Assembly (NCBI GenBank): GCA_030651765.1
Contig: JAUSBY010000011.1
Span: forward strand, 186,001-250,000
Direction of reading: 5' to 3'
DNA length: 64,000 bases
Source of the DNA: Coriobacteriia bacterium
GTDB lineage: Bacteria > Actinomycetota > Coriobacteriia > Anaerosomatales > Anaerosomataceae
A program made the translations under genes and the position numbers. The notes below the pieces were generated by a model. It made no database searches, was not told the origin of the DNA, and was given only the letters and a program-made list of their open reading frames with translations. Below, piece after piece: positions 49,981 to 60,588 of the stretch (position 1 is the stretch's first letter; each line of letters opens with the position of its first letter).

Positions 49981-51567
49981 GTGGGTGACAGGACGATTCG
50001 CGTGCGGTTCGAGCCTGGTGGGCTTGATGCCGATGTCGCACCCGGCACCACGCTGCTCGATGCGGCTCACGCCGCCGGTGCGAGTATCGACGCGCCGTGC
50101 GGTGGTGTGGGCCGATGCGGGGCGTGCCGGGTGCGCGTGAGCGGCGAGGTCTCGGCGCTCACCCCCGAGGAGGCCGACATCCTGGGCGGCGCGAGTGTGG
50201 CCGCCGGCAGGCGGCTCGCGTGCCGCGCCCGCGCGATCGGCGACGCGGTCGTCACGCTCGGTCGCGTGCGGGGCCAGGCGAAGGTCGTCATCGGCTCCGG
50301 GCGCGCAGAGTCCGAGGGCACAGGGCCGGAGGCGTCGGGAGACGTCGGCGCGGCGGTCGATATCGGTACGACCACCATCGCCGTGGCGATAGTCGATATG
50401 GCAACCGGGGACGTTGTCGCCAGCCGGGGCGCCTTGAACGCGCAGGACGCATTCGGCGCCGACGTGATGAGCCGGGTGACCGCGGCGCTCGATGGAGCCA
50501 CCGCGGAACTGCGCGCGACGGTCCTCGAACAGGTCGGGGATCTCGTGGCCGAAGCGCTCGACGAGAGCGGGTCCTCGGCCGATGACCTCATCGAGCTGGC
50601 CATCTGCGGCAACACCGCGATGACCGGCATCTTCCTCGGGCGGGACATCTCACCGCTTGCCGCGGCACCGTATGAGGGTGCCGACATCTCCGGGGCGGCC
50701 GGGACCGCCCGCGCGCTCGGCCTGCCCGGCTTCGACCGGGCGGAGGCGTACGTGCTTCCGGGCATCTCGGCCTTCGTCGGTGCCGACATCACCGCCGGGC
50801 TGCTCGTCACGCGCCTGGACGAGCGCACCGCCCCGACGCTCTTCGTCGACCTGGGCACCAACGGAGAGATCGTGCTCGCCGGAGCCGGGCGTATGCGGGC
50901 CACGTCCACCGCGGCCGGACCTGCGCTCGAGGGCGCGGCCATCGAGTGCGGCATGCTTGCCGAGACAGGTGCGATCGAGCGCGTCAGGCTCGAAGGAGAC
51001 GCCCTCTCACTCGATGTCATCGGAGACGTGGCGCCGGCCGGGATTTGCGGGAGCGGCGTGCTCGATCTTGTGGCTGCGCTGCTGGACGCGGGCGTCCTCG
51101 ATGCGAGCGGACGGCTGCTCGAGGTGCCGGGTCCGCTCGGCGCGCGCGTGGCCGAGCGCGACGGTCAGCGCGTTTTCGAGTTGGACCCCGGGCGCGACGT
51201 GGTCCTCACCCAGAAGGACGTGCGCCAGGTCCAGCTCGCCGTCGCGGCGGTGCGCACCGGGATCGAGCTGCTGCTCGCCGATGCCGGGGTGCGCGTGTCC
51301 GATATCGGTGAGGTCATCGTCGCCGGCGGCTTCGGGTTCCACATCGATGCTGCATCGGTCACGCGCATCGGGCTCCTGCCTGCCGAGTGGCGGGATCGCA
51401 TCACCTTCGCCGGCAACACCGCACTCGCCGGCGCACACCTCACGCTCGGCGATGATGCCTGGCGCAGGCGGGCGACCACGCTGGCGGGTCGCGTCCTCGC
51501 GATCGATCTTGCCGCACACCCGGAGTTCCAGGACCGCTTCATCGCAGCGCTCGGGTTTCCGGAGTGA
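49981..51567 (+). CDS. RACo-like corrinoid-protein activator
   Basis: The 528 residues begin with a plant-type [2Fe-2S] ferredoxin domain (C40, C46, C49, C81), then the linker and an ASKHA domain (VGAAVDIGTTTIAVAIVD, FVDLGTNGEIVLA, GICGSGVLDLVAALLDAG). This is the architecture of the reductive activators of corrinoid-dependent methyltransferases (acetogenesis, O-demethylation). GTG with GAGGAGG 8 bases upstream. The corrinoid protein is not in the window. Confidence 0.93.
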   Translation: MGDRTIRVRFEPGGLDADVAPGTTLLDAAHAAGASIDAPCGGVGRCGACRVRVSGEVSALTPEEADILGGASVAAGRRLACRARAIGDAVVTLGRVRGQAKVVIGSGRAESEGTGPEASGDVGAAVDIGTTTIAVAIVDMATGDVVASRGALNAQDAFGADVMSRVTAALDGATAELRATVLEQVGDLVAEALDESGSSADDLIELAICGNTAMTGIFLGRDISPLAAAPYEGADISGAAGTARALGLPGFDRAEAYVLPGISAFVGADITAGLLVTRLDERTAPTLFVDLGTNGEIVLAGAGRMRATSTAAGPALEGAAIECGMLAETGAIERVRLEGDALSLDVIGDVAPAGICGSGVLDLVAALLDAGVLDASGRLLEVPGPLGARVAERDGQRVFELDPGRDVVLTQKDVRQVQLAVAAVRTGIELLLADAGVRVSDIGEVIVAGGFGFHIDAASVTRIGLLPAEWRDRITFAGNTALAGAHLTLGDDAWRRRATTLAGRVLAIDLAAHPEFQDRFIAALGFPE

Positions 51568-51704: not shown

Positions 51705-52028
51705 ATGACCACCGCTACGCGACCCGCACTCACCGAGGCACAGCTGGACGCAGCGCTCAAGGCGCTGGCTTCAGCGCAGCGGCGTGAGATCCTGCGCATC
51801 CTCGCCGCGAGTACCGACGTACCGGGCAAGACCTGCTGCGCCCAGGATGAGATGTGCGGATGCACGCTCGCCGAGCGGCTCGGGCTTGCGGCATCGACCA
51901 TCTCTCACCATATGTCGGTCTTGCGCGCCGCCGGACTGATCACCTCCCGCAAGGACGGAACCTGGGTGTATTACACGGCCCGCACGGACGTACTCTCCTC
52001 AGTCGCGGAAGCGGTGCAGGTGCTCTAG
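51705..52028 (+). CDS. ArsR/SmtB family metal(loid) regulator
   Basis: The 107 residues: winged helix with LAERLGLAASTISHHMSVLRAAGLI. The cluster CCAQDEMCGC (C44, C45, C51, C53) sits in or just before the recognition region and is the likely thiol sensor site for As(III), Hg, Cd or similar. Two matching operators flank the gene. First gene of a run extending to the selenoprotein at 55804. Confidence 0.93.
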   Translation: MTTATRPALTEAQLDAALKALASAQRREILRILAASTDVPGKTCCAQDEMCGCTLAERLGLAASTISHHMSVLRAAGLITSRKDGTWVYYTARTDVLSSVAEAVQVL

Positions 52029-52086: not shown

Positions 52087-52115
52087 ATGAAGTACATGAC
52101 AGAAGGGTGGACGAC

Positions 52116-52349
52116 ATGGTCGTCAAGATCCTGGGGCCGGGGTGCATGAACTGCCAGAAGCTGGAGGCGCTCGCACGGAAGGCCGTCGATGAGCTCGGTT
52201 TGGACGCCGAGATCGTCAAGGTGGACGATTACGCCGACATCATGGCCTACGGCATCATGTCGACGCCCGCTCTCGTGGTGGACGAACAGGTGAAGATCGC
52301 CGGCTTCGTGCCATCGCTCGATCAGGTCAAAGCCGCGCTCCGGGCATAG
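52116..52349 (+). CDS. Small thioredoxin-like (glutaredoxin-type) protein
   Basis: The 77 residues of the TM0996/MTH895-type: VKILGPGCMNCQKLE, active-site C10 and C13, and TPALVVDEQVKIAGF with the cis-Pro. These proteins often accompany DUF318/ArsP permeases. ATG 52116 with AAGGGTGG upstream. Cytoplasmic thiol reductant or metal(loid) carrier for the permease encoded next. Confidence 0.92.
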   Translation: MVVKILGPGCMNCQKLEALARKAVDELGLDAEIVKVDDYADIMAYGIMSTPALVVDEQVKIAGFVPSLDQVKAALRA

Positions 52350-52366: not shown

Positions 52367-53383
52367 GTGAGCGGTGTAGTCGCATTCTTCGGCTGGCTCA
52401 ACGACGCACTGCTCAAGATGACGTGGCTGAACGACCTCGTAGGCCAGCTGGTCGAGAAGGTCTTCGGGCTGCCGCTCGACGGCCGCGCTGGGGCAAGCGT
52501 GCAGTTCTTCATCTACGACACCATCAAGATCTTCGTGCTGCTCTCCACGCTCATCTTCGTGATCTCGTACGTGCAGAGCTTCTTCCCACCGGAGCGCACC
52601 CGGAGGATCCTCGGCCGGTTCTCTGGTGTGTGGGCCAACGTGCTCGGCGCGCTCCTTGGTACCATCACGCCGTTCTGTTCGTGCTCTTCGATACCGCTCT
52701 TCATCGGCTTCACGTCGGCAGGTCTGCCCATCGGCGTGACGTTCTCGTTCCTGATCTCCTCGCCGTTGGTGGACCTTGCCTCGGTCATCCTGCTCGCGAG
52801 CATCTTCAACTGGAAGATCGCCATCGCGTACGTGGTGGTCGGCCTGATCCTCGCTGTCATCGGTGGAACGCTGATCAGTGCGCTCAAGCTCGAGCGCTTC
52901 GTCGAGCCGTTCGTGTACGGAACGCACATGGCCGAGGCCGACATGCCAGAACTCACGAGGCGCGATCGACTGTCGTTCGCCTGGCGCGCGGTCCTCGATA
53001 TCGTGAAGAAGGTGTGGCCGTACGTGCTCGCAGGCGTGGGAATCGGGGCCGTGATTCATGGATGGATCCCCGAGTCGTTCATCTCCGCGATCCTCGGTGA
53101 CCGCAATCCGTTCTCGGTGGTGCTCGCCACGATCGTCGGTGTGCCGATGTACGCGGACATCTTCGGGACACTGCCCATCGCCGAGGCCCTCGTGACCAAG
53201 GGCGTGGGGATCGGAACGGTGTTGGCGTTCATGATGGCGGTGACCGCGCTCTCGCTGCCGTCACTGATCATGCTCAAGAAGGTCGTGAAGACGCCGCTAC
53301 TCGCGACGTTCTTCGGAATCGTCGTAACGGGCATCCTCGTCATCGGCTACACGTTCAACGCGTTCAGCGGCCTGCTCCTGTAG
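52367..53383 (+). CDS. ArsP/DUF318-type permease
   Basis: A protein of 338 residues with eight or so helices in two inverted halves. TPFCSCSSIPLFIGF (C104, C106) is the family signature, and VPMYADIFGTLPIAEAL is the matching part of the second half. ArsP members export trivalent organoarsenicals; which substrate applies here is inference. GTG start (52367), 17 bases after the thioredoxin-like gene. Confidence 0.92.
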   Translation: MSGVVAFFGWLNDALLKMTWLNDLVGQLVEKVFGLPLDGRAGASVQFFIYDTIKIFVLLSTLIFVISYVQSFFPPERTRRILGRFSGVWANVLGALLGTITPFCSCSSIPLFIGFTSAGLPIGVTFSFLISSPLVDLASVILLASIFNWKIAIAYVVVGLILAVIGGTLISALKLERFVEPFVYGTHMAEADMPELTRRDRLSFAWRAVLDIVKKVWPYVLAGVGIGAVIHGWIPESFISAILGDRNPFSVVLATIVGVPMYADIFGTLPIAEALVTKGVGIGTVLAFMMAVTALSLPSLIMLKKVVKTPLLATFFGIVVTGILVIGYTFNAFSGLLL

Positions 53384-53416: not shown

Positions 53417-53497
53417 ATGGATAGTCCGAACATCCCGGAGGGCTCCACTACCTCCGCAGTGCTCGTTGCCCTCGTGCCGCCGAAAGCCGAGGACTAG
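53417..53497 (+). CDS. Small peptide (26 aa)
   Basis: ATG 53417 preceded by AAGGAGG at 9 bases, one of the stronger ribosome sites here. Peptide sequence begins MDSPNIPEGSTTSAVL and ends PPKAED; there is no Cys. Its stop is one base before the ATG of the next permease, so it may couple translation or be a small partner of the permeases. Confidence 0.55.
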   Translation: MDSPNIPEGSTTSAVLVALVPPKAED

Positions 53498-53498
53498 G

Positions 53499-53987
53499 AT
53501 GCTCGAGCGCTACATCGGCTACGCCTACCTGGTTCTGGCAGCGATCGGGTTCGCGTACACGTACGCGAAGAGCCATGACAAGGCCCGCAAGGCAGCGCAA
53601 GGAGGCCTGAAGGCGCTCCGCGGTGTCGCGCTCACCTTCGCGGGGGTGTTCGGGCTTGTCGGACTTCTCGACATCTTCGTGCCGCCGGCGTTCATCGAGC
53701 GCGTGCTGGGATCTCAGGGCGGGTTCATGTCATTGCTCGCAGGAAGCGCGCTGGGCTCGGTCGCCGCGGGGCCGCCCGTGGCTGCTTATCCGATCGCGGC
53801 CTCGCTGCTCAAGAGCGGCGCCTGGGCGCCTGCGGTTGCGGCATTCATCGTATCGTGGACACTGGTCGGCTTCGTCTCGCTTCCGTTCGAGGCACGCACA
53901 TTCGGCCCGAGGTTCGCCCTCGCGCGCAACGGGCTTTCCTTTGTCTTCGCGATGATCATCGGACTCTTGATGGGGTGGGTCTTGTGA
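53499..53987 (+). CDS. Half-size permease, N-terminal half-like
   Basis: The 162 residues with four or five helices. GGFMSLLAGSALGSVAAGPPVAAYPIAASLLKSG resembles the repeat half of the DUF318/ArsP permeases, without the CSCSS motif. ATG is one base after the small peptide's stop. It overlaps the second half-size gene (GTGA). Confidence 0.8.
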   Translation: MLERYIGYAYLVLAAIGFAYTYAKSHDKARKAAQGGLKALRGVALTFAGVFGLVGLLDIFVPPAFIERVLGSQGGFMSLLAGSALGSVAAGPPVAAYPIAASLLKSGAWAPAVAAFIVSWTLVGFVSLPFEARTFGPRFALARNGLSFVFAMIIGLLMGWVL

Positions 53988-54535
53988 AGCGGCTGCTGGA
54001 GTGGATGAGAGACGAGTTGCTGTTCGTGCTCGCGGTGGCGCTGTACGTGTGGGCGTTCGCCGTCGCACCGGACAAGGCGCTTCAGGCTCTTGCTGTCGGC
54101 GGGCGGACATTCCTCGGCATCCTGCCGATCATTGCGGCGGTGTTCGCGGCGCTGGGGCTCTTCAACGTGTGGGTCGACAAGAAGAAGATCGCAGCCGTGC
54201 TCGGCAAGGGTGGCGGCATAAGGGCGGTCGCGATCGCGAGTCTGGCCGGAACCATCCTCGTCGGCCCTGTGTACGTGATCTTCCCGCTCCTGAAAGCGGT
54301 ACGCGAGCACGGCGCCAGATGGGCCGTCATCGGTGCGGTACTTGCCGCATGGGCGGTCAAGGTACCCATGGTGCCGATGGAGATCGGCATGCTGGGCCTG
54401 CGCTTCTCCGTTGCGCGCATCGCGCTGGTCGCACTTGCTGCAATCCCGATCGGCTATCTGCTGGAATGGGTGATGGGCATCCGTCGCCCGGTTGCTGCAA
54501 TCGAATCTGACGAGAGGATCGTGATCGATGAGTGA
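53984..54535 (+). CDS. Half-size permease, C-terminal half-like
   Basis: The 183 residues with about five helices. GTILVGPVYVIFPLLKAVREHGARWAVIGAVL parallels the GPPVAAYPI region of the preceding gene, so the two proteins probably assemble as a heterodimer equal to one full permease. GTG start inside the upstream stop. Ends in an acidic tail. Confidence 0.8.
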   Translation: MKRLLEWMRDELLFVLAVALYVWAFAVAPDKALQALAVGGRTFLGILPIIAAVFAALGLFNVWVDKKKIAAVLGKGGGIRAVAIASLAGTILVGPVYVIFPLLKAVREHGARWAVIGAVLAAWAVKVPMVPMEIGMLGLRFSVARIALVALAAIPIGYLLEWVMGIRRPVAAIESDERIVIDE

Positions 54536-55073
54536 GAAGGCGCAACCCGCGCGGACGGCAACGAAGGGGCAGCAACCCTCGGATGACCTCGTAGCGACCG
54601 GGCGCTCGAAGAGCCCGATCGTACTCCTGATCGTCGCCATCTTCCTGGGCTTCATCGTGATGAAGCTGGTGCTCGACAGCGCCGCGCCAGCCGTGTCGCC
54701 CGCTGATACGGGTTCTCCGGCCGGCACGACCATCACCTCGGTCCGCAACGACGCGGTGGCCGACTTCGATGCGGCCGTCGCATCGGGAAGGCCGATATAT
54801 GTGCTCTTCCACTCGCTCACGTGTGTTCCGTGCGTCGAGATATCGGAAGTCGCTGATGTCGTGATGCCTGAGTACGAGGGTGAAGTGGTATTCGTCAACG
54901 CGATCACTGACGATCCGTCCGGGCAGCAGCTGGCTGCGAACTTCGCGTTCCAGTACATCCCGACATCGTTCTTCCTCTCGCCCGGCGGTGCCGAGGTGGT
55001 TGACTCGTTCACCGGGGCGATGGACGAGCCGCAGATGCGCGCCTACCTGGACGCACTGGTGCAGGCCCGGTGA
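54528..55073 (+). CDS. Membrane-anchored thioredoxin-family protein
   Basis: The 181 residues: cytoplasmic tail, one membrane segment (about 30-49), then an extracytoplasmic thioredoxin domain with LFHSLTCVPCVEISEV (C99, C102) and IPTSFFLSPGG with cis-Pro. Probably re-reduced by the CcdA encoded next. ATG overlaps the permease stop by 8 bases. Confidence 0.9.
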   Translation: MSEKAQPARTATKGQQPSDDLVATGRSKSPIVLLIVAIFLGFIVMKLVLDSAAPAVSPADTGSPAGTTITSVRNDAVADFDAAVASGRPIYVLFHSLTCVPCVEISEVADVVMPEYEGEVVFVNAITDDPSGQQLAANFAFQYIPTSFFLSPGGAEVVDSFTGAMDEPQMRAYLDALVQAR

Positions 55074-55786
55074 ACATCGAGAGCCTGGCATCCGGTCTGA
55101 CTTCAGGGAACGTTGGCGGTATCGCGGCGTTCGGCGTCGCCTTCCTGGGCGGTCTCGTGGCGGGGTTCGGCCCGTGCATCCTGCCGATGTTGCCTGCGGT
55201 CTTCGGCTATGTCACCGGCATGGTCACTCGCGACGCCTCGGCCGAGGAGCCTCGCGCACTACTCGTTCGGGCGTTGGGGCTCTCGATGGTCTTCGTGCTC
55301 GGCATGAGCGTCGTGTTCGCGGCCATCGGCGCGGTTGCAGGATTCCTCGGGCGCGCACTCATGTTCGGCGCGTGGGCGTACTACGTGATCGCGGCGATCT
55401 GTGTGGTCATCGCGCTGCAGATGCTGGAGCTGATCGATCTTCCGGTGGACAGACTCAACGCCTTGTTGCCGATGAAGCGACCTGAGCGGCGCGGCGTCAT
55501 CGGTGCCTTCATATTCGGGATGCTGTTCGGCCTCGTCGCGTCCCCGTGCTCGACGCCGATCCTGGCGGCCATCGCGGCGATTGCCGCGACGACCGGCAGC
55601 GCCGCCAAGGGCGGTGCACTCCTGTTCGTGTACGGACTCGGCAAGGGCGTACCCCTGTTGCTGCTCGGTCTCGCCTCGGGCTCACTCGGTCTGATGCGAA
55701 AGGTGTCGCGCGTGACGCCTGTGCTCACCAAGATCGGCGGCATCGGTCTGCTGGGCGCGGCTGCGTATCTCATCTATCTTGCATGA
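55070..55786 (+). CDS. ccdA: CcdA-type thiol-electron transporter
   Basis: The 238 residues with six helices and the two repeats: VAGFGPCILPMLPAVF (C36) and LVASPCSTPILAAI (about C162), the membrane thiols that move electrons from cytoplasmic thioredoxin to the outside. GTGA overlap with the thioredoxin gene. Its place here suggests thiol supply for metal(loid) handling rather than cytochrome assembly. Confidence 0.92.
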   Translation: MNIESLASGLTSGNVGGIAAFGVAFLGGLVAGFGPCILPMLPAVFGYVTGMVTRDASAEEPRALLVRALGLSMVFVLGMSVVFAAIGAVAGFLGRALMFGAWAYYVIAAICVVIALQMLELIDLPVDRLNALLPMKRPERRGVIGAFIFGMLFGLVASPCSTPILAAIAAIAATTGSAAKGGALLFVYGLGKGVPLLLLGLASGSLGLMRKVSRVTPVLTKIGGIGLLGAAAYLIYLA

Positions 55787-55803
55787 TGTTCAAAGGAGGA
55801 TGT

Positions 55804-56160
55804 ATGGAAGAGATCGTCATCCAGGTCGTGCCGGAACCCGCCTGTGGTTGAGGCGGCGGCACCGACTGCTGCGACACGCCTGAGTCGCTGCCCGGTGAGA
55901 TCACCGAGGGAGCGACTTGAGAGATGCCGCTGCAGTGGCGCCTCCACGTGCTGGAGGTACAGTTGAAAGAGCGGATCGGCAGACCGGTACGCGTCGTTCA
56001 GAGGAGTCTGTACCATCTCGCGGGCACTGAGCGCACCGCCGCTGTCGACGTTCTCGTGAGTGGAGCCGAGTTGCCGTTGGTGCTCGTGGGCGATCGAGTC
56101 GCGTGCACGGGTTCGCTGGACCCGGACGCCGTCAGCGCGGCCATTCGCGAACTCGGGTAG
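55804..56160 (+). CDS. Candidate thioredoxin-like selenoprotein, two in-frame UGA codons
   Basis: ATG with AAAGGAGG 4 bases upstream. The frame reads 15 residues, then TGA (55849-55851) in VPEPACG-U-GGGTDCC, then TGA (55918-55920), then open to TAG at 56160, for 118 residues. The N-terminal EEIVIQVV, a helix with VLEVQLKERIG, PVRVVQ and PLVLVGDRVACTG follow thioredoxin-fold order, so the whole frame looks like one protein with Sec 16 and perhaps Sec 39. Alternatively the second TGA ends a 38-residue selenopeptide and ATG 55924 (GAGGGAG upstream) starts a separate 78-residue protein. Hairpins follow both UGAs. Confidence 0.68.
55858..55892 (+). promoter_or_regulatory. Possible bacterial SECIS hairpin for the first UGA
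   Basis: GGCACCGACT pairs with AGTCGCTGCC (9 of 10 pairs, one C-C mismatch); the loop begins with G. The stem starts 7 bases and the loop about 16 bases after the UGA, within the known range for bacterial SECIS elements. Confidence 0.55.
55941..55957 (+). promoter_or_regulatory. Possible bacterial SECIS hairpin for the second UGA
   Basis: CCTCCA-CGTGC-TGGAGG, a perfect 6-bp stem with GU in the loop; the loop lies about 27 bases after the UGA at 55918. Short palindromes are common in GC-rich DNA, so this is weaker than the cluster context. Confidence 0.4.
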
Positions 56161-56164
56161 CTGC

Positions 56165-56968
56165 TCAGCCGGTTCTAAGCGCCTCGGCGAGCGTCGGCGG
56201 CAGGCCGGCGGCTACGACCGCCTCTGCCACCCGCTCGATGTCGTAAGCGACTCGATGCACGACCACGCCGAGCCAGACTCGCTCGCCGCCCGGTGCGCCG
56301 GCGGGTCCTGCGGCGTGATCGTCAGGGCACGCGGCGTTCACCTCGGCCTTGCTGCCGAAGACGAGTTCGACCCATCCCGCGCGCGGGTCGCCGTCCTTGG
56401 GCTTGCCGACCGAGCCGCTGCTCACGTAGTGGACCGCGCGGCCGTCCTCGGCCGTGAGCACCCGGTGATAAGGGATGTGGATGTGGCCAACGCACACGAC
56501 GTCGGCCACCGCCTGGTCGGCGAGTCTCGCCAGCTGGGCGTCCTTCCGGTCGAGCAGCAGGTACTCGTTGATCTTGCGTGGGCTGCCATGTGCCAGCAGG
56601 ATGCGGGCTCCCTCGTGCACGAGCCGGAACTCCGTCGGCAGCGTTGCGAGCCACTCGTGGTCGGCATCGTCGAGCGCCTCGTCGGTGAACGCATACGAGG
56701 CCGCGCCGTCTGACTTCGCCTGCTCTGTGGCGTAGTAGCAGCCGCAATCGCCGCGCCGGGTGCCGATGCCCTCGTCGTAGTTGCCGCGGATCGTCGGTAT
56801 GCCGAGGGTGCGGATGCGCTCCACGACGCCGGACGGATCCGGCCCGTAGCCCACCAGATCGCCGAGGCAGTAGGTCTCCTCGATCTCCGCCGACGCGATG
56901 TCTGCGAGGACCTCCTCGAGGGCAAGGGAGTTCGCGTGGATGTCCGAGAAGAGCGCGATGCGCCTCAT
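56165..56968 (-). CDS. Metallophosphoesterase, YfcE/DUF-type
   Basis: The 267 residues have the calcineurin-like motifs ALFSDIHANSLAL (D-x-H), YCLGDLVGYGPDP (GD), TIRGNYDE (GN with D in place of H), LLAHGSP and CVGHIHIPY (GH-x-H). ATG 56968 overlaps the acr3 stop; GTG 56975 is also possible. Third gene of the arsR-acr3 operon; its link to arsenic is not obvious. Confidence 0.88.
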   Translation of the reverse strand: MRRIALFSDIHANSLALEEVLADIASAEIEETYCLGDLVGYGPDPSGVVERIRTLGIPTIRGNYDEGIGTRRGDCGCYYATEQAKSDGAASYAFTDEALDDADHEWLATLPTEFRLVHEGARILLAHGSPRKINEYLLLDRKDAQLARLADQAVADVVCVGHIHIPYHRVLTAEDGRAVHYVSSGSVGKPKDGDPRAGWVELVFGSKAEVNAACPDDHAAGPAGAPGGERVWLGVVVHRVAYDIERVAEAVVAAGLPPTLAEALRTG

Positions 56969-58107
56969 GAGTCGCACGCCTCACCTTCCACGAGAGACGA
57001 GACCAAGGCGACCGGCTCCACACACACGGACCCCTCGCCCGAGCGCTCCATGTAGCGCGTGCGGGTGCGGTTGGCTATCCACACGAGCGAGAGCATCACC
57101 GGAACCTCGACGAGCACGCCGACGACGGTCGCGAGCGCCGCGGCTGACTTGAGGCCGAAGAGCGCGATCGCCACAGCTACAGCAAGCTCGAAGAAGTTCG
57201 AGGCGCCGATGAAGCCTGCGGGCGCACCGATCCGGTGCGGGATCCTCCAGCGCCACGACCATCCGTAGGCGATCGCGAAGATGAGGAACGTCTGGATCGT
57301 GAGCGGGATCGCGATGAGGAGGATGTGGAGCGGATTGTCCACGATGATCTCACCCTGGAAGATGAAGATGATCACGAGTGTGACGAGCAGGGCGATGATC
57401 GTGACGGGGCCGAATCGCGGCAGGAAGTCGCGCTCGAACCAGGCCAGGCCCCTGGCCGCGATCAGACGGGTGCGCACGAGCCACCCGGCAGCGAGCGGCA
57501 CGACCACGAAGAGCACGACGGAGAGCGCCATCGTGTCCCACGGCACCGGAATGCCACCCACGCCGAGCAGGAACGACACGATCGGAACGAACGCCACGAG
57601 CATGATCAGATCGTTCAAGGCGACCTGGACGAGCGTGTAGGCGGGATCCCCGTCGGCCAGATATGACCATACGAACACCATCGCCGTGCACGGCGCGGCG
57701 CCCAGGAGCACGGCACCAGCAAGGTACTGCTGCGCCAGCTCGGGCGTGATCTGATTCTTGAAGATGACGTTGAAGAACAGCCAGGCGATGCCGAACATGG
57801 TGAACGGCTTGATGAGCCAGTTGACCACGGTCGTGACGATCAGTCCGTTCTTGCGCTCGCCGACGCGCCTGATCGATGCGAAGTCGATCTGCAGCATCAT
57901 CGGGAAGATCATGAGCCAGATCAGGATGGCCACCGGCATCGAGATCTCGGCGTAGGTGAAACGCGAGAGTCCGTCGGCTACGCCCGGCCAGGCATTCCCG
58001 ATGAACGTGCCGGCGGCGATGCAGAGCGCCACCCAGAGCGTGAGGTAGCGCTCGAAGAAGCTCATGCGCTTCTTCTCGGCGGGTGCTGCGGGTGCGGTTC
58101 CGCTCAT
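56965..58107 (-). CDS. acr3: Acr3 family arsenite efflux permease
   Basis: Exports As(OH)3 from the cell. The 380 residues with ten helices; the family signature LLGAAPCTAMVFVWS with the essential Cys at 140, and FIGASNFFELAVAVAIALFG near the end. It follows arsR with an ATGA overlap. Confidence 0.96.
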   Translation of the reverse strand: MSGTAPAAPAEKKRMSFFERYLTLWVALCIAAGTFIGNAWPGVADGLSRFTYAEISMPVAILIWLMIFPMMLQIDFASIRRVGERKNGLIVTTVVNWLIKPFTMFGIAWLFFNVIFKNQITPELAQQYLAGAVLLGAAPCTAMVFVWSYLADGDPAYTLVQVALNDLIMLVAFVPIVSFLLGVGGIPVPWDTMALSVVLFVVVPLAAGWLVRTRLIAARGLAWFERDFLPRFGPVTIIALLVTLVIIFIFQGEIIVDNPLHILLIAIPLTIQTFLIFAIAYGWSWRWRIPHRIGAPAGFIGASNFFELAVAVAIALFGLKSAAALATVVGVLVEVPVMLSLVWIANRTRTRYMERSGEGSVCVEPVALVSSLVEGEACDS

Positions 58108-58415
58108 CGGTCGTCTCCTTGTCCCGGGTCACATATTGCCGCGTCGGAGGCGATCCCGCCTAAGGCGTTCAGGAACTCCTCGAGCACGGGCTTGCTCAGG
58201 CAGTACACCATCGAGGTGCCGACCGCGTGCGCGCTGATGACACCGGCGGACTTCAGAACGCGCAGGTGTTGCGAGATGGTCGACTGCGCGAGCGGCAGTC
58301 CGGCGAACACGTCGTGACCGCGGCATTCGCTCTGCGCTGCCAGCAGTCGGACGATACGTACACGCGCGGGGTGGGCGAGTGCCTTGGCTATCCCGGCCAG
58401 CTGTTCGTCGGTCAC
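58104..58415 (-). CDS. ArsR family arsenic regulator
   Basis: The 103 residues: winged helix with AQSTISQHLRVLKSAGVIS. Cysteines 31, 72 and 95 may form the As(III) site. GTG 58415 was chosen because GGAGG lies 4 bases upstream; the frame continues to 58454 without a ribosome site. Heads the acr3 operon, divergent from yedE. Confidence 0.92.
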   Translation of the reverse strand: MTDEQLAGIAKALAHPARVRIVRLLAAQSECRGHDVFAGLPLAQSTISQHLRVLKSAGVISAHAVGTSMVYCLSKPVLEEFLNALGGIASDAAICDPGQGDDR

Positions 58416-58424
58416 GGAGCCTCC

Positions 58425-58446
58425 TTCATCGTCAATCGTAGATGAA
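58425..58446. promoter_or_regulatory. Operator upstream of arsR-acr3
   Basis: TTCATC-N10-GATGAA, 9 bases upstream of the arsR start, with ATCGT direct repeats inside. It differs from the TTCGA-N6-TCGAA site of the other ArsR. Confidence 0.45.
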
Positions 58447-58567
58447 CGATACACAGGGAGGAGGCCTTACACAAGTAGCGTAGAGCAGAGGACCCGCTCT
58501 TGACACAGACCGATGCTTATAGCAATCATCGGCAGGGGTTATGCCGCGTCCGAGAAAGGGGAGTTCT

Positions 58568-59809
58568 ATGACCAAGCGTCGTGTGATCGGCCCTACCGCC
58601 TGGATACTCGGCGGAGCGGGCCTGTTCATCGGGGCGGTCGCCGCGTGGCTGGTGAGTCAGGGGAATCCGGGCAACATGGGCCTGTGTATCGCGTGCTTCC
58701 TGCGCGACATCATGGGCTTCTTCGTGGGCGGATCGACCAACCAGGCCGCCGTCGCCTACATCCGGCCCGAGATCATCGGCATCATTTTGGGCGCGATGGG
58801 CGCCGCACTTGTCACGCGCGAGTTCCGCCCGCGCGGCGGAAGCCAGCCGATCGTCAGGTTCGTGCTCGGGTTCATCTTCATGGCCGGCGCGCTCATCTTC
58901 CTCGGGTGTACCGTGCGCGCGTGGCTGCGCCTCGGTGGCGGCGACCTGTCGGCGCTGTGGGGGGTGGCCGGAATCGTCGCCGGCGTGATCGTCGGCATCG
59001 TATTCCTGAAGCGTGGCTTCAACATGGGGCGGGCGAAGAACCTGGCCAAGCCACTCGGCTGGTTGCTTCCCGCCGTCGGCGTGGCGATGCTCGCCTTCCT
59101 GCTCCTCTCGACGTACGGCGCCAAGCCCGACTGGGCCACCGTCACTCCGGCCAACGGCAAGGCGGTCGTGCCGGGTGAGGTCGTCGTCACGACTGACGGC
59201 ACCGTGATCAAGCCCACGGACGCCGCGCTCGTGGACGGCGCCGTGGTGGCCGCCGACGGGACGGTGCTGGCCGACGCCGAGAAGGTGGCCGCGACCAAGC
59301 CGATGCCTGGCGGTAAGCGGGCGCCGTTGTGGATCTCGCTTGTCGCCGGCCTTGCCATCGGCGTCGTGGCGCAGCGCAGCCGCTTCTGCTCGATCGGAGG
59401 CATCCGCGACGCGATTCTCGTCCGCCGATTCGACCTGCTCTTCGGCGTGGTAGGCCTGCTCATCGGTGCCACGGTCGTGAACATGATCTTCGGGCAGTAC
59501 AACCTCGGCTTCACCGGCCAGCCCGTGGCGCACAACGACGCGCTCGGCAGCTTCGCGGCGATGACGGTGGCCACCTTCGCGGCCATCCTGCTCGGCGGAT
59601 GCCCGTTCCGTCAGGTGATCATGGGCTCCGAAGGCGATGCCGACTCGTTCATGGCGGTTGCGGGCATGCTCGTGGGCGCGGGAGCCACGCACTTCTTCAA
59701 GCTCGCATCGTCCGCCGCCGGCCTTGCCGACATCGCGTGGCCGGCGCTCGGCGTGATGGCAGTCGTCCTCGTCGCGGTGGCCGTTCTCGGCTCCCGCACA
59801 ACCGCATAG
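58568..59809 (+). CDS. yedE: YedE-family (selenium-associated) transporter
   Basis: The 413 residues have about ten helices in two halves, each with a Cys motif: GLCIACFLRDIMGFF (C43, C46 region) and RSRFCSIGGIRDAIL, plus LLGGCPFRQVIMGSEGD. A soluble loop of about 80 residues (residues 200-265) lies between halves. The family (YeeE/YedE) takes up sulfur species; the YedE subgroup is tied to selenium use. ATG 58568 with GGGGAG upstream. Confidence 0.9.
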   Translation: MTKRRVIGPTAWILGGAGLFIGAVAAWLVSQGNPGNMGLCIACFLRDIMGFFVGGSTNQAAVAYIRPEIIGIILGAMGAALVTREFRPRGGSQPIVRFVLGFIFMAGALIFLGCTVRAWLRLGGGDLSALWGVAGIVAGVIVGIVFLKRGFNMGRAKNLAKPLGWLLPAVGVAMLAFLLLSTYGAKPDWATVTPANGKAVVPGEVVVTTDGTVIKPTDAALVDGAVVAADGTVLADAEKVAATKPMPGGKRAPLWISLVAGLAIGVVAQRSRFCSIGGIRDAILVRRFDLLFGVVGLLIGATVVNMIFGQYNLGFTGQPVAHNDALGSFAAMTVATFAAILLGGCPFRQVIMGSEGDADSFMAVAGMLVGAGATHFFKLASSAAGLADIAWPALGVMAVVLVAVAVLGSRTTA

Positions 59810-59830
59810 CGCGAGAGAAGGGAAGACCTC

Positions 59831-60040
59831 ATGACTGAACTCGACGTGCGCGGGCTGTCGTGTCCGATGCCGCTGATGCACACCAAGAAGGCACTCGAGA
59901 GCGACCCGGCCGAGATCGTGGTCCACGCCGACAGCGGGACCGCCAAGGCCAACGTCGCGGCGCTGCTGGCCGACGAAGGCTACACGGTCACGATCGAGGA
60001 GTCGGGCGAGGAGTACCGCATCAAGGGCGTTCGCGCGTGA
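59831..60040 (+). CDS. TusA/SirA-like sulfur (selenium) carrier
   Basis: The 69 residues: VRGLSCPMPLMHTKKAL with the carrier Cys at residue 11, ending EEYRIKGVRA. In yedE operons this protein, called YedF when fused, is thought to carry Se. AAGGGA upstream. GTGA overlap with the next gene. Confidence 0.93.
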   Translation: MTELDVRGLSCPMPLMHTKKALESDPAEIVVHADSGTAKANVAALLADEGYTVTIEESGEEYRIKGVRA

Positions 60041-60588
60041 GGCTGTTCGGCCGCAAGGACGCGGATCCGAGCCCGGGCGCCGAGGAGGCGCTCGGGCTGT
60101 TCCTCTTCGATGCCGTCAACGACGCGATCGCCGCCGAGCGAGCGCTCAAGGTGGCGGGCTACGGCGTGCACCTGGTCGCGCCGCCGCCGCACCTGCGCGC
60201 CGGCTGCGATCTCTCGGTCGCGCTCGAGCGCGTGGAGCACGTCGGTGCCGAGCGTGTGCTGGCCGAGGCGGGTGTGCACGTTCGGGAGTGGGTGAATGAC
60301 GCCGAAGGCACCGCGAGCGTGTGCGACCTCGTGACCACGGTGGACTTCGGCGACTGGCTGATGGTGCGCGCCGGGAACATGAAGATCGTCGTGGAGAAGG
60401 CCACCGGCGTGATCGTGAACACGTCCGGCGGCGGCTGCCCGGACATCCCGTACCTGAACCTCGCGCTTGTGGGCAGGCGCCTCGATGAGGTGCCGCGCCC
60501 CAAGGATTTCGGCTACACCCTGTGCGGGCTGATGCTCGATCGGGCGTACGTGGAGGTTCGCGCGCTGCTTGAGGTTGATGGCCGATGA
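60037..60588 (+). CDS. DUF3343-containing Se/S-associated protein
   Basis: The 183 residues: the DUF3343 region (LFLFDAVNDAIAAERALKVAGYGVHLVAPPPHLRAGCDLSVA) with Cys 49 in RAGCDLS, and a second domain with TSGGGCPDIPYLNLALVG. DUF3343 proteins occur with YedE/YedF as presumed Se or S carriers. Tight overlaps on both sides. Confidence 0.88.
   Translation: MRLFGRKDADPSPGAEEALGLFLFDAVNDAIAAERALKVAGYGVHLVAPPPHLRAGCDLSVALERVEHVGAERVLAEAGVHVREWVNDAEGTASVCDLVTTVDFGDWLMVRAGNMKIVVEKATGVIVNTSGGGCPDIPYLNLALVGRRLDEVPRPKDFGYTLCGLMLDRAYVEVRALLEVDGR

Follow-up and report, generated by a model that had tools for sequence, protein, structure and literature searches.

Introduction

Small thioredoxin-like selenoproteins with a CxU motif are known from Brachyspira, where Sec.1 belongs to PF13192 (PMC5330540, PMC13188914), and two selenocysteine (Sec) residues per protein are found in the catalogued families MbdU (NF045648), TsoB (NF045694) and UXX-star (NF041114). 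ArsD (PDB 3MWH, 3KGK, 3KTB) combines a thioredoxin-like fold with a setting in arsenic operons, and DUF2703, described as a thioredoxin-fold family, is found in Rhodococcus within an ars cluster that arsenate induces (PMC6514093). The bacterial SECIS hairpin has been modelled (bSECIS) with a stem of 4-16 bp, a loop of 3-9 nt that lies 16-37 nt from the UGA and has a G in its first two positions, and an energy of at most -7.5 kcal/mol (PMC13188914).

Here we analysed a window of 64,000 nucleotides, the whole stretch of DNA under study, from a Coriobacteriia genome (2.26 Mb, 97% complete), which holds a gene that resembles several of these systems in part. Its predicted product shares the small thioredoxin-like build and the CxU motif with Sec.1, the two Sec residues with the catalogued double selenoproteins, and a thioredoxin-like fold and the arsenic setting with ArsD. 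It differs from Sec.1 by a second Sec, by other neighbours and by the lack of a PF13192 match in the new family, and from ArsD in having Sec where ArsD has Cys and in a much longer loop; none of the 31 family members collected matches the NF045648, NF045694 or NF041114 models. Comparative evidence shows, as far as comparison of genes can, that the gene encodes one protein of 118 residues in which both UGAs would be read as Sec by the SelA/SelB/tRNA-Sec system.

The Gene, Its Family and the Two UGA Codons

The initial annotation of the window had singled out the frame at 55804-56160 as a candidate thioredoxin-like selenoprotein gene with a very strong ribosome site and two in-frame TGAs, open beyond them to 56160. 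This observation is confirmed: the frame runs on the forward strand from an ATG at 55804 to a TAG at 56158-56160 and yields 118 residues when the TGAs at codons 16 and 39 are both read through. Its elements are:

55792..55799, forward strand: Shine-Dalgarno sequence AAAGGAGG, with the ATG 4 nt further on (from the sequence)
55804..56160, forward strand: gene for the predicted double-selenocysteine thioredoxin-like protein, 118 codons plus TAG (frame kept in a 31-member family)
55849..55851, forward strand: inferred first Sec codon, UGA, residue 16, in the CGU motif C-G-U-G-G-G (TGA in 31 of 31 members)
55918..55920, forward strand: inferred second Sec codon, UGA, residue 39 (TGA 21, TGC 5, TGT 3, TGG 1 and TCC 1 among 31 members)

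The predicted product is MEEIVIQVVPEPACGUGGGTDCCDTPESLPGEITEGATUEMPLQWRLHVLEVQLKERIGRPVRVVQRSLYHLAGTERTAAVDVLVSGAELPLVLVGDRVACTGSLDPDAVSAAIRELG, with a CxU motif followed by a distant second U; with UGA read as stop, all that is left of the gene product is a stub of 15 residues and a fragment of 78.

The family was collected by one contig scan, which matched UBA2272 (Actinomycetota) with both TGAs present, by a search of the phylum, and by a search of 398 genomes of the class with a five-row profile. The phylum and class searches gave matches in 31 genomes, all but one in the same order, probably Anaerosomatales, the sole match outside it being marginal (4.9e-4). A second search of the phylum found no convincing family member outside the order, and tblastn of plasmids gave no family match; whole-genome searches were limited to Actinomycetota, other phyla being covered only by one close-relative scan. 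The resulting alignment holds 31 full or nearly full members, the window protein included, which are 31-92% identical to it and all come from this one order.

Homologues ending at the first TGA had been named in advance as a finding that would refute the candidate, and all 31 members run on through it. The 30 homologues thus retain the frame and the first TGA, and 20 of them retain the second as well. At site 2, eight members have Cys instead of TGA, a change that requires two to three events on the tree and is classically taken to mark a Sec position; the remaining two, with TGG and TCC, no longer have either. At site 1 no Cys homologue was found among the 31 members, with phyla beyond Actinomycetota hardly searched, so the support there consists of a TGA conserved in every member within a frame under purifying selection. 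Of the Cys or TGA anticipated at the two codons, the members show both kinds at codon 39, the two with neither aside, and TGA only at codon 16.

Selection acts on the protein across the whole frame. Over eight pairs of relatives, pN is lower than pS in all three segments into which the UGAs divide the frame (window and L063: pS/pN of 0.53/0.12 before UGA 1, 0.24/0.06 between the two and 0.62/0.14 after UGA 2), contrary to the non-conserved downstream frame that would also have refuted the candidate. Because the segment between the UGAs is untranslated under the ordinary reading, its constraint at the protein level is direct evidence of recoding. By default, two in-frame stops would be read as nonsense codons of a pseudogene or as sequencing errors, and four MAGs carry the gene without detectable sec genes; against this, both TGAs are found again in independent genomes, at identities of 37-92% and under purifying selection. 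Homologues with both TGAs already refute such a reading for the family, and it retains practically no credibility. On these comparisons we regard recoding of both UGAs to Sec in the window gene as near certain.

Some members have peculiarities of their own. Genome G453 encodes three paralogues (L071 8776-9117 and 13172-13543; L087); all have TGA at site 1, and at site 2 one has TGA and the other two have Cys. In L065, L066, L069, L070, L072, L073 and L075, the 3' end of the gene encodes a Cys-rich tail (GCC, CGCC or GCGC) followed by a TGA stop, and in these Cys-tailed relatives the gene end overlaps or abuts an ArsR gene.

Hairpins After the UGA Codons

Two hairpins had been proposed to place their loops within the bacterial SECIS range behind the UGAs. 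Our scan, which required a stem of 5 bp and allowed loops of up to 14 nt, and folding of the region bear this out for the second UGA and leave the first outside the strict bSECIS model:

55858..55892, forward strand: SECIS candidate for the first UGA; 55858-55867 pairs with 55883-55892 (9 bp, one mismatch) around a 15-nt loop (MFE fold)
55940..55958, forward strand: SECIS-type hairpin of the second UGA, GCCTCCA-CGTGC-TGGAGGT (bSECIS criteria met)

The loop of the first hairpin begins 16 nt past the UGA, and its 15 nt exceed the 3-9 nt of the model; since, in addition, L019, a relative with 92% identity, does not preserve the stem, the first-UGA SECIS hairpin of the window stays unproven. In the paralogues L071, L083 and L087 a stem with the loop GGTCT follows UGA 1, a loop that we take to resemble that of E. 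coli fdhF.

The second hairpin has a 7-bp stem (55940-55946 with 55952-55958) and a 5-nt loop, CGTGC, 26 nt past the UGA. A bSECIS-type hairpin with an energy below -7.5 follows all 21 second UGAs, compared with 51% of control positions. In most of these hairpins, a 7-bp stem at 18 nt carries a CGTGY-type loop; in the window's group, a stem of 6-7 bp at 26 nt carries the loop [CG]GTNN. Pairing in the two designs reaches 98.9% and 95.9% of cells (the latter in the window's group, over 7 sequences), against 29-62% and 33-51% in slid versions. Each design shows one compensatory pair and, with so little variation, covariation is only suggestive. Individually, the second-UGA hairpins are mostly unremarkable against synonymous randomisation, and MFE z-scores alone do not separate UGA sites from Cys sites; Cys-type members have similarly stable folds at site 2, so that folding energy by itself proves little. 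Rfam gave no match in the selenoprotein region.

The case for an RNA signal therefore rests on hairpin placement and on conservation at synonymous sites. In seven of the eight pairs, the stretch past UGA 2 shows more synonymous change than that between the UGAs, and identity at fourfold sites averages 66% over the columns of the zones after the UGAs against 47% elsewhere (p = 0.00025, in a permutation that treats columns as independent). This is what an overlapping RNA signal would predict and supports some signal of the kind; the few Cys-type members show similar fourfold conservation after site 2.

These data also bear on a reading in which only UGA 1 is recoded, giving a 38-residue selenopeptide and a separate 78-residue protein restarted at the ATG two codons past UGA 2. 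The Met in question (55924-55926) is present in 19 of the 21 two-UGA members and only two of the eight Cys members, as reinitiation might prefer, but Cys replaces UGA 2 in eight homologues, which makes one continuous protein from site 1, a hairpin follows every second UGA, and no Shine-Dalgarno sequence precedes the internal ATG in the window. We consider this reading very improbable. The conservation of Met41 may reflect a reinitiation start or plain protein constraint, and beside full recoding, the conserved ATG may act as a switch by which selenium determines whether the full-length or a short product is made.

Selenocysteine Machinery and Selenium Supply

Absence of the Sec machinery from the genome would have refuted the candidate, and a search instead recovered two tRNA-Sec genes (anticodon TCA) along with selA (604 bits) and selB (372 bits); one selA, one selB and one tRNA-Sec gene lie together inside about 10.5 kb on contig 8. 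A reassignment of UGA to sense throughout the genome, for which we found no support, is already refuted, given this tRNA-Sec system and the use of UGA as an ordinary stop, e.g. at 55784-55786 in the adjacent CcdA gene; we see next to no chance of it.

Among relatives, selA is present in 23 of 29 with a family sequence and in 16 of the 20 from the same order where the family was not found; the machinery is thus general in the order and no marker of the two-UGA gene. The four MAGs in which selA, selB and tRNA-Sec were not found, G423, G425, G503 and G436, are 93-98% complete and all carry both TGAs. As the three genes span only about 10.5 kb in the window genome, a single assembly gap could remove them together, and one missing contig could explain each case, though four are more than expected.

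A second tRNA-Sec, differing in 3 of 97 bases, occurs at G000:C13:12178-12654 (L002, L018) together with the end of a closely similar second SelB, a piece that sits at the contig end. This may be either a duplicated sel locus or a binned-in piece of a close relative.

Fold and Nearest Known Families

AlphaFold returned the same model with 5 or with 31 sequences, in the order strand, disordered loop (residues 14-38), helix, strand, helix, two strands and helix; the loop aside, pLDDT is mostly around 90. The predicted fold is thioredoxin-like, and structure comparison agrees with the model that a single fold of this type continues across both TGAs, as initially suggested. In the model, a single long flexible loop joins strand 1 to helix 1 and holds C14, U16, C22, C23 and U39 or has them at its edge; C101 is part of a later strand.

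Among solved structures, the closest are SA0789, a YuzD-type protein of the DUF1462 family (PDB 1XG8, VIA Z 7.9), and ArsD (VIA Z 6.4-6.9, under 8; at Z 6.8-6.9, rmsd 3.5-3.6 over 81 residues). Scores of 7-8 are middling, and values like these indicate a common arrangement, not homology. In ArsD, the metal-binding residues presumably sit on the loop after strand 1, like the Sec and Cys residues here; in sequence, no member scores above the gathering threshold of the ArsD model (PF06953), the only match being one of the 31 at E = 0.68. The DUF1462/YuzD model (PF07315) likewise gives nothing above the Pfam threshold, with a weak signal in three members (best E 0.013) and no match to the window protein; we know of no Sec form of YuzD/DUF1462 and of no link of it to arsenic. 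Searches with PDB sequence profiles gave chance matches only.

Classical thioredoxin (PF00085, CxxC/UxxC) was rejected, the motif here being CxU plus a distant U without a Pfam match. Membership in ArsD, YuzD, PF13192 or the catalogued double selenoproteins was considered and is not claimed.

Genomic Neighbourhood and Proposed Function

The gene lies among genes of the arsenic and thiol-redox type, with the yedE-type selenium operon noted initially nearby, whose Sulf_transp, TusA and Se/S-carrier domains we recovered:

51705..52028, forward strand: ArsR-family regulator (PF01022; conserved neighbour)
52107..52349, forward strand: ArsE/MTH895-type small thioredoxin (TIGR00412, above cut-off)
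52367..53383, forward strand: ArsP_1 permease (PF03773, 2.8e-65)
53466..54535, forward strand: two further short ArsP_1-type permease genes (PF03773, 2.1e-9 and 2.4e-5, the second below cut-off)
54528..55073, forward strand: thioredoxin with a probable N-terminal membrane anchor (PF00085; hydrophobic N-terminus in the sequence)
55070..55786, forward strand: CcdA/DsbD-type transmembrane electron carrier (PF02683, 3.2e-31; the selenoprotein starts 17 nt on)
56965..58107, reverse strand: ACR3 arsenite efflux transporter (TIGR00832, 2.3e-114, above cut-off)
58104..58454, reverse strand: second ArsR-family regulator (PF01022)
58541..60588, forward strand: yedE, tusA and Se/S-carrier genes, likely selenium supply (PF04143, PF01206, PF11823)

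A phosphoesterase gene also lies downstream of the selenoprotein gene, on the opposite strand with ACR3 and ArsR. Much of the same set (ArsR, ArsE, ArsP, thioredoxin, CcdA) surrounds most family members; many also have Acr3 or DUF2703 nearby, and the selenoprotein domain is often joined to a DUF2703 domain in one protein or follows it directly. Upstream of the arsenic operon of the window, a RACo-type corrinoid reductive activator is encoded at 50101-51567 (PF14574, PF17651).

From neighbourhood, fold and chemistry we infer that the protein is probably an arsenic-handling redox protein. We lean, with no arsenic-binding data at hand, towards an ArsD-like selenoprotein with two Sec residues that binds or reduces trivalent arsenic. 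In such a module, ArsR would act as the sensor of the arsenical, electrons would come from CcdA and from both thioredoxins (ArsE and the second one), and the two-Sec protein would bind or reduce the trivalent arsenical and deliver it for export by ArsP or Acr3. Selenolates are deprotonated at neutral pH and have a high affinity for As(III), which would account for the absence of Cys at site 1.

The operon may, on the other hand, merely be shared by a two-Sec redox enzyme for another substrate (peroxide, mercury or selenite), with the recoding unchanged. In its favour, redox enzymes make up most selenoproteins (PMC13188914), the ArsP_1 permease has sub-threshold similarity to SaoE/SO_0444 transporters as well, and some members lack the full setting, L084 and L087 having no ars-type neighbours in the fetched stretch and L067 and L068 only DUF2703. 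Set against this are Acr3 and ArsE, both above curated cut-offs in the window, and the recurrence of ars-type neighbours around most members, so that we rate another substrate as rather unlikely, if a serious alternative. Within the preferred arsenic role, a more specific proposal is that both Sec residues contribute to a single As(III) site of mixed selenolate/thiolate type, carried by an ArsD-like scaffold, to which the short-product switch may add; without arsenic-binding data this remains doubtful. If true, it would amount to a genetically encoded, selenium-based arsenic chaperone or reductase.

Novelty and Distant Relatives

None of the 31 members matches a selenoprotein family in Pfam above threshold, nor does any give a plausible match to a selenoprotein model in NCBIfam (June 2026), a release that reportedly includes models of families from Haft and Gwadz 2023 and Haft and Tolstoy 2025. 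A 2026 inventory of 119 prokaryotic selenoprotein families and subfamilies contains nothing with such a motif pair and setting. We therefore consider the two-UGA family new in that it matches no catalogued selenoprotein family; an earlier description elsewhere is not excluded. The initial reading as a two-UGA thioredoxin-like selenoprotein was essentially right, and a family with two Sec residues is added to the known prokaryotic selenoproteins, suggesting that in this lineage arsenic resistance draws on selenium chemistry. The protein would escape standard gene annotation and, as UGA read as stop splits the gene, other annotated genomes of the order are likely to be in error too; with no Cys form at site 1, screens relying on Cys counterparts would also tend to miss it.

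In another class of the phylum (G244, G020, G083, G060) we observed distant small thioredoxin-like proteins (L092/L095, L099, L098, L097 and L100), of which L092 has no NCBIfam match. Some carry one TGA, in GGUGP, SGUGP or SGUSS, and others none (SGLGP, CNIC); the group is possibly a further undescribed selenoprotein family.
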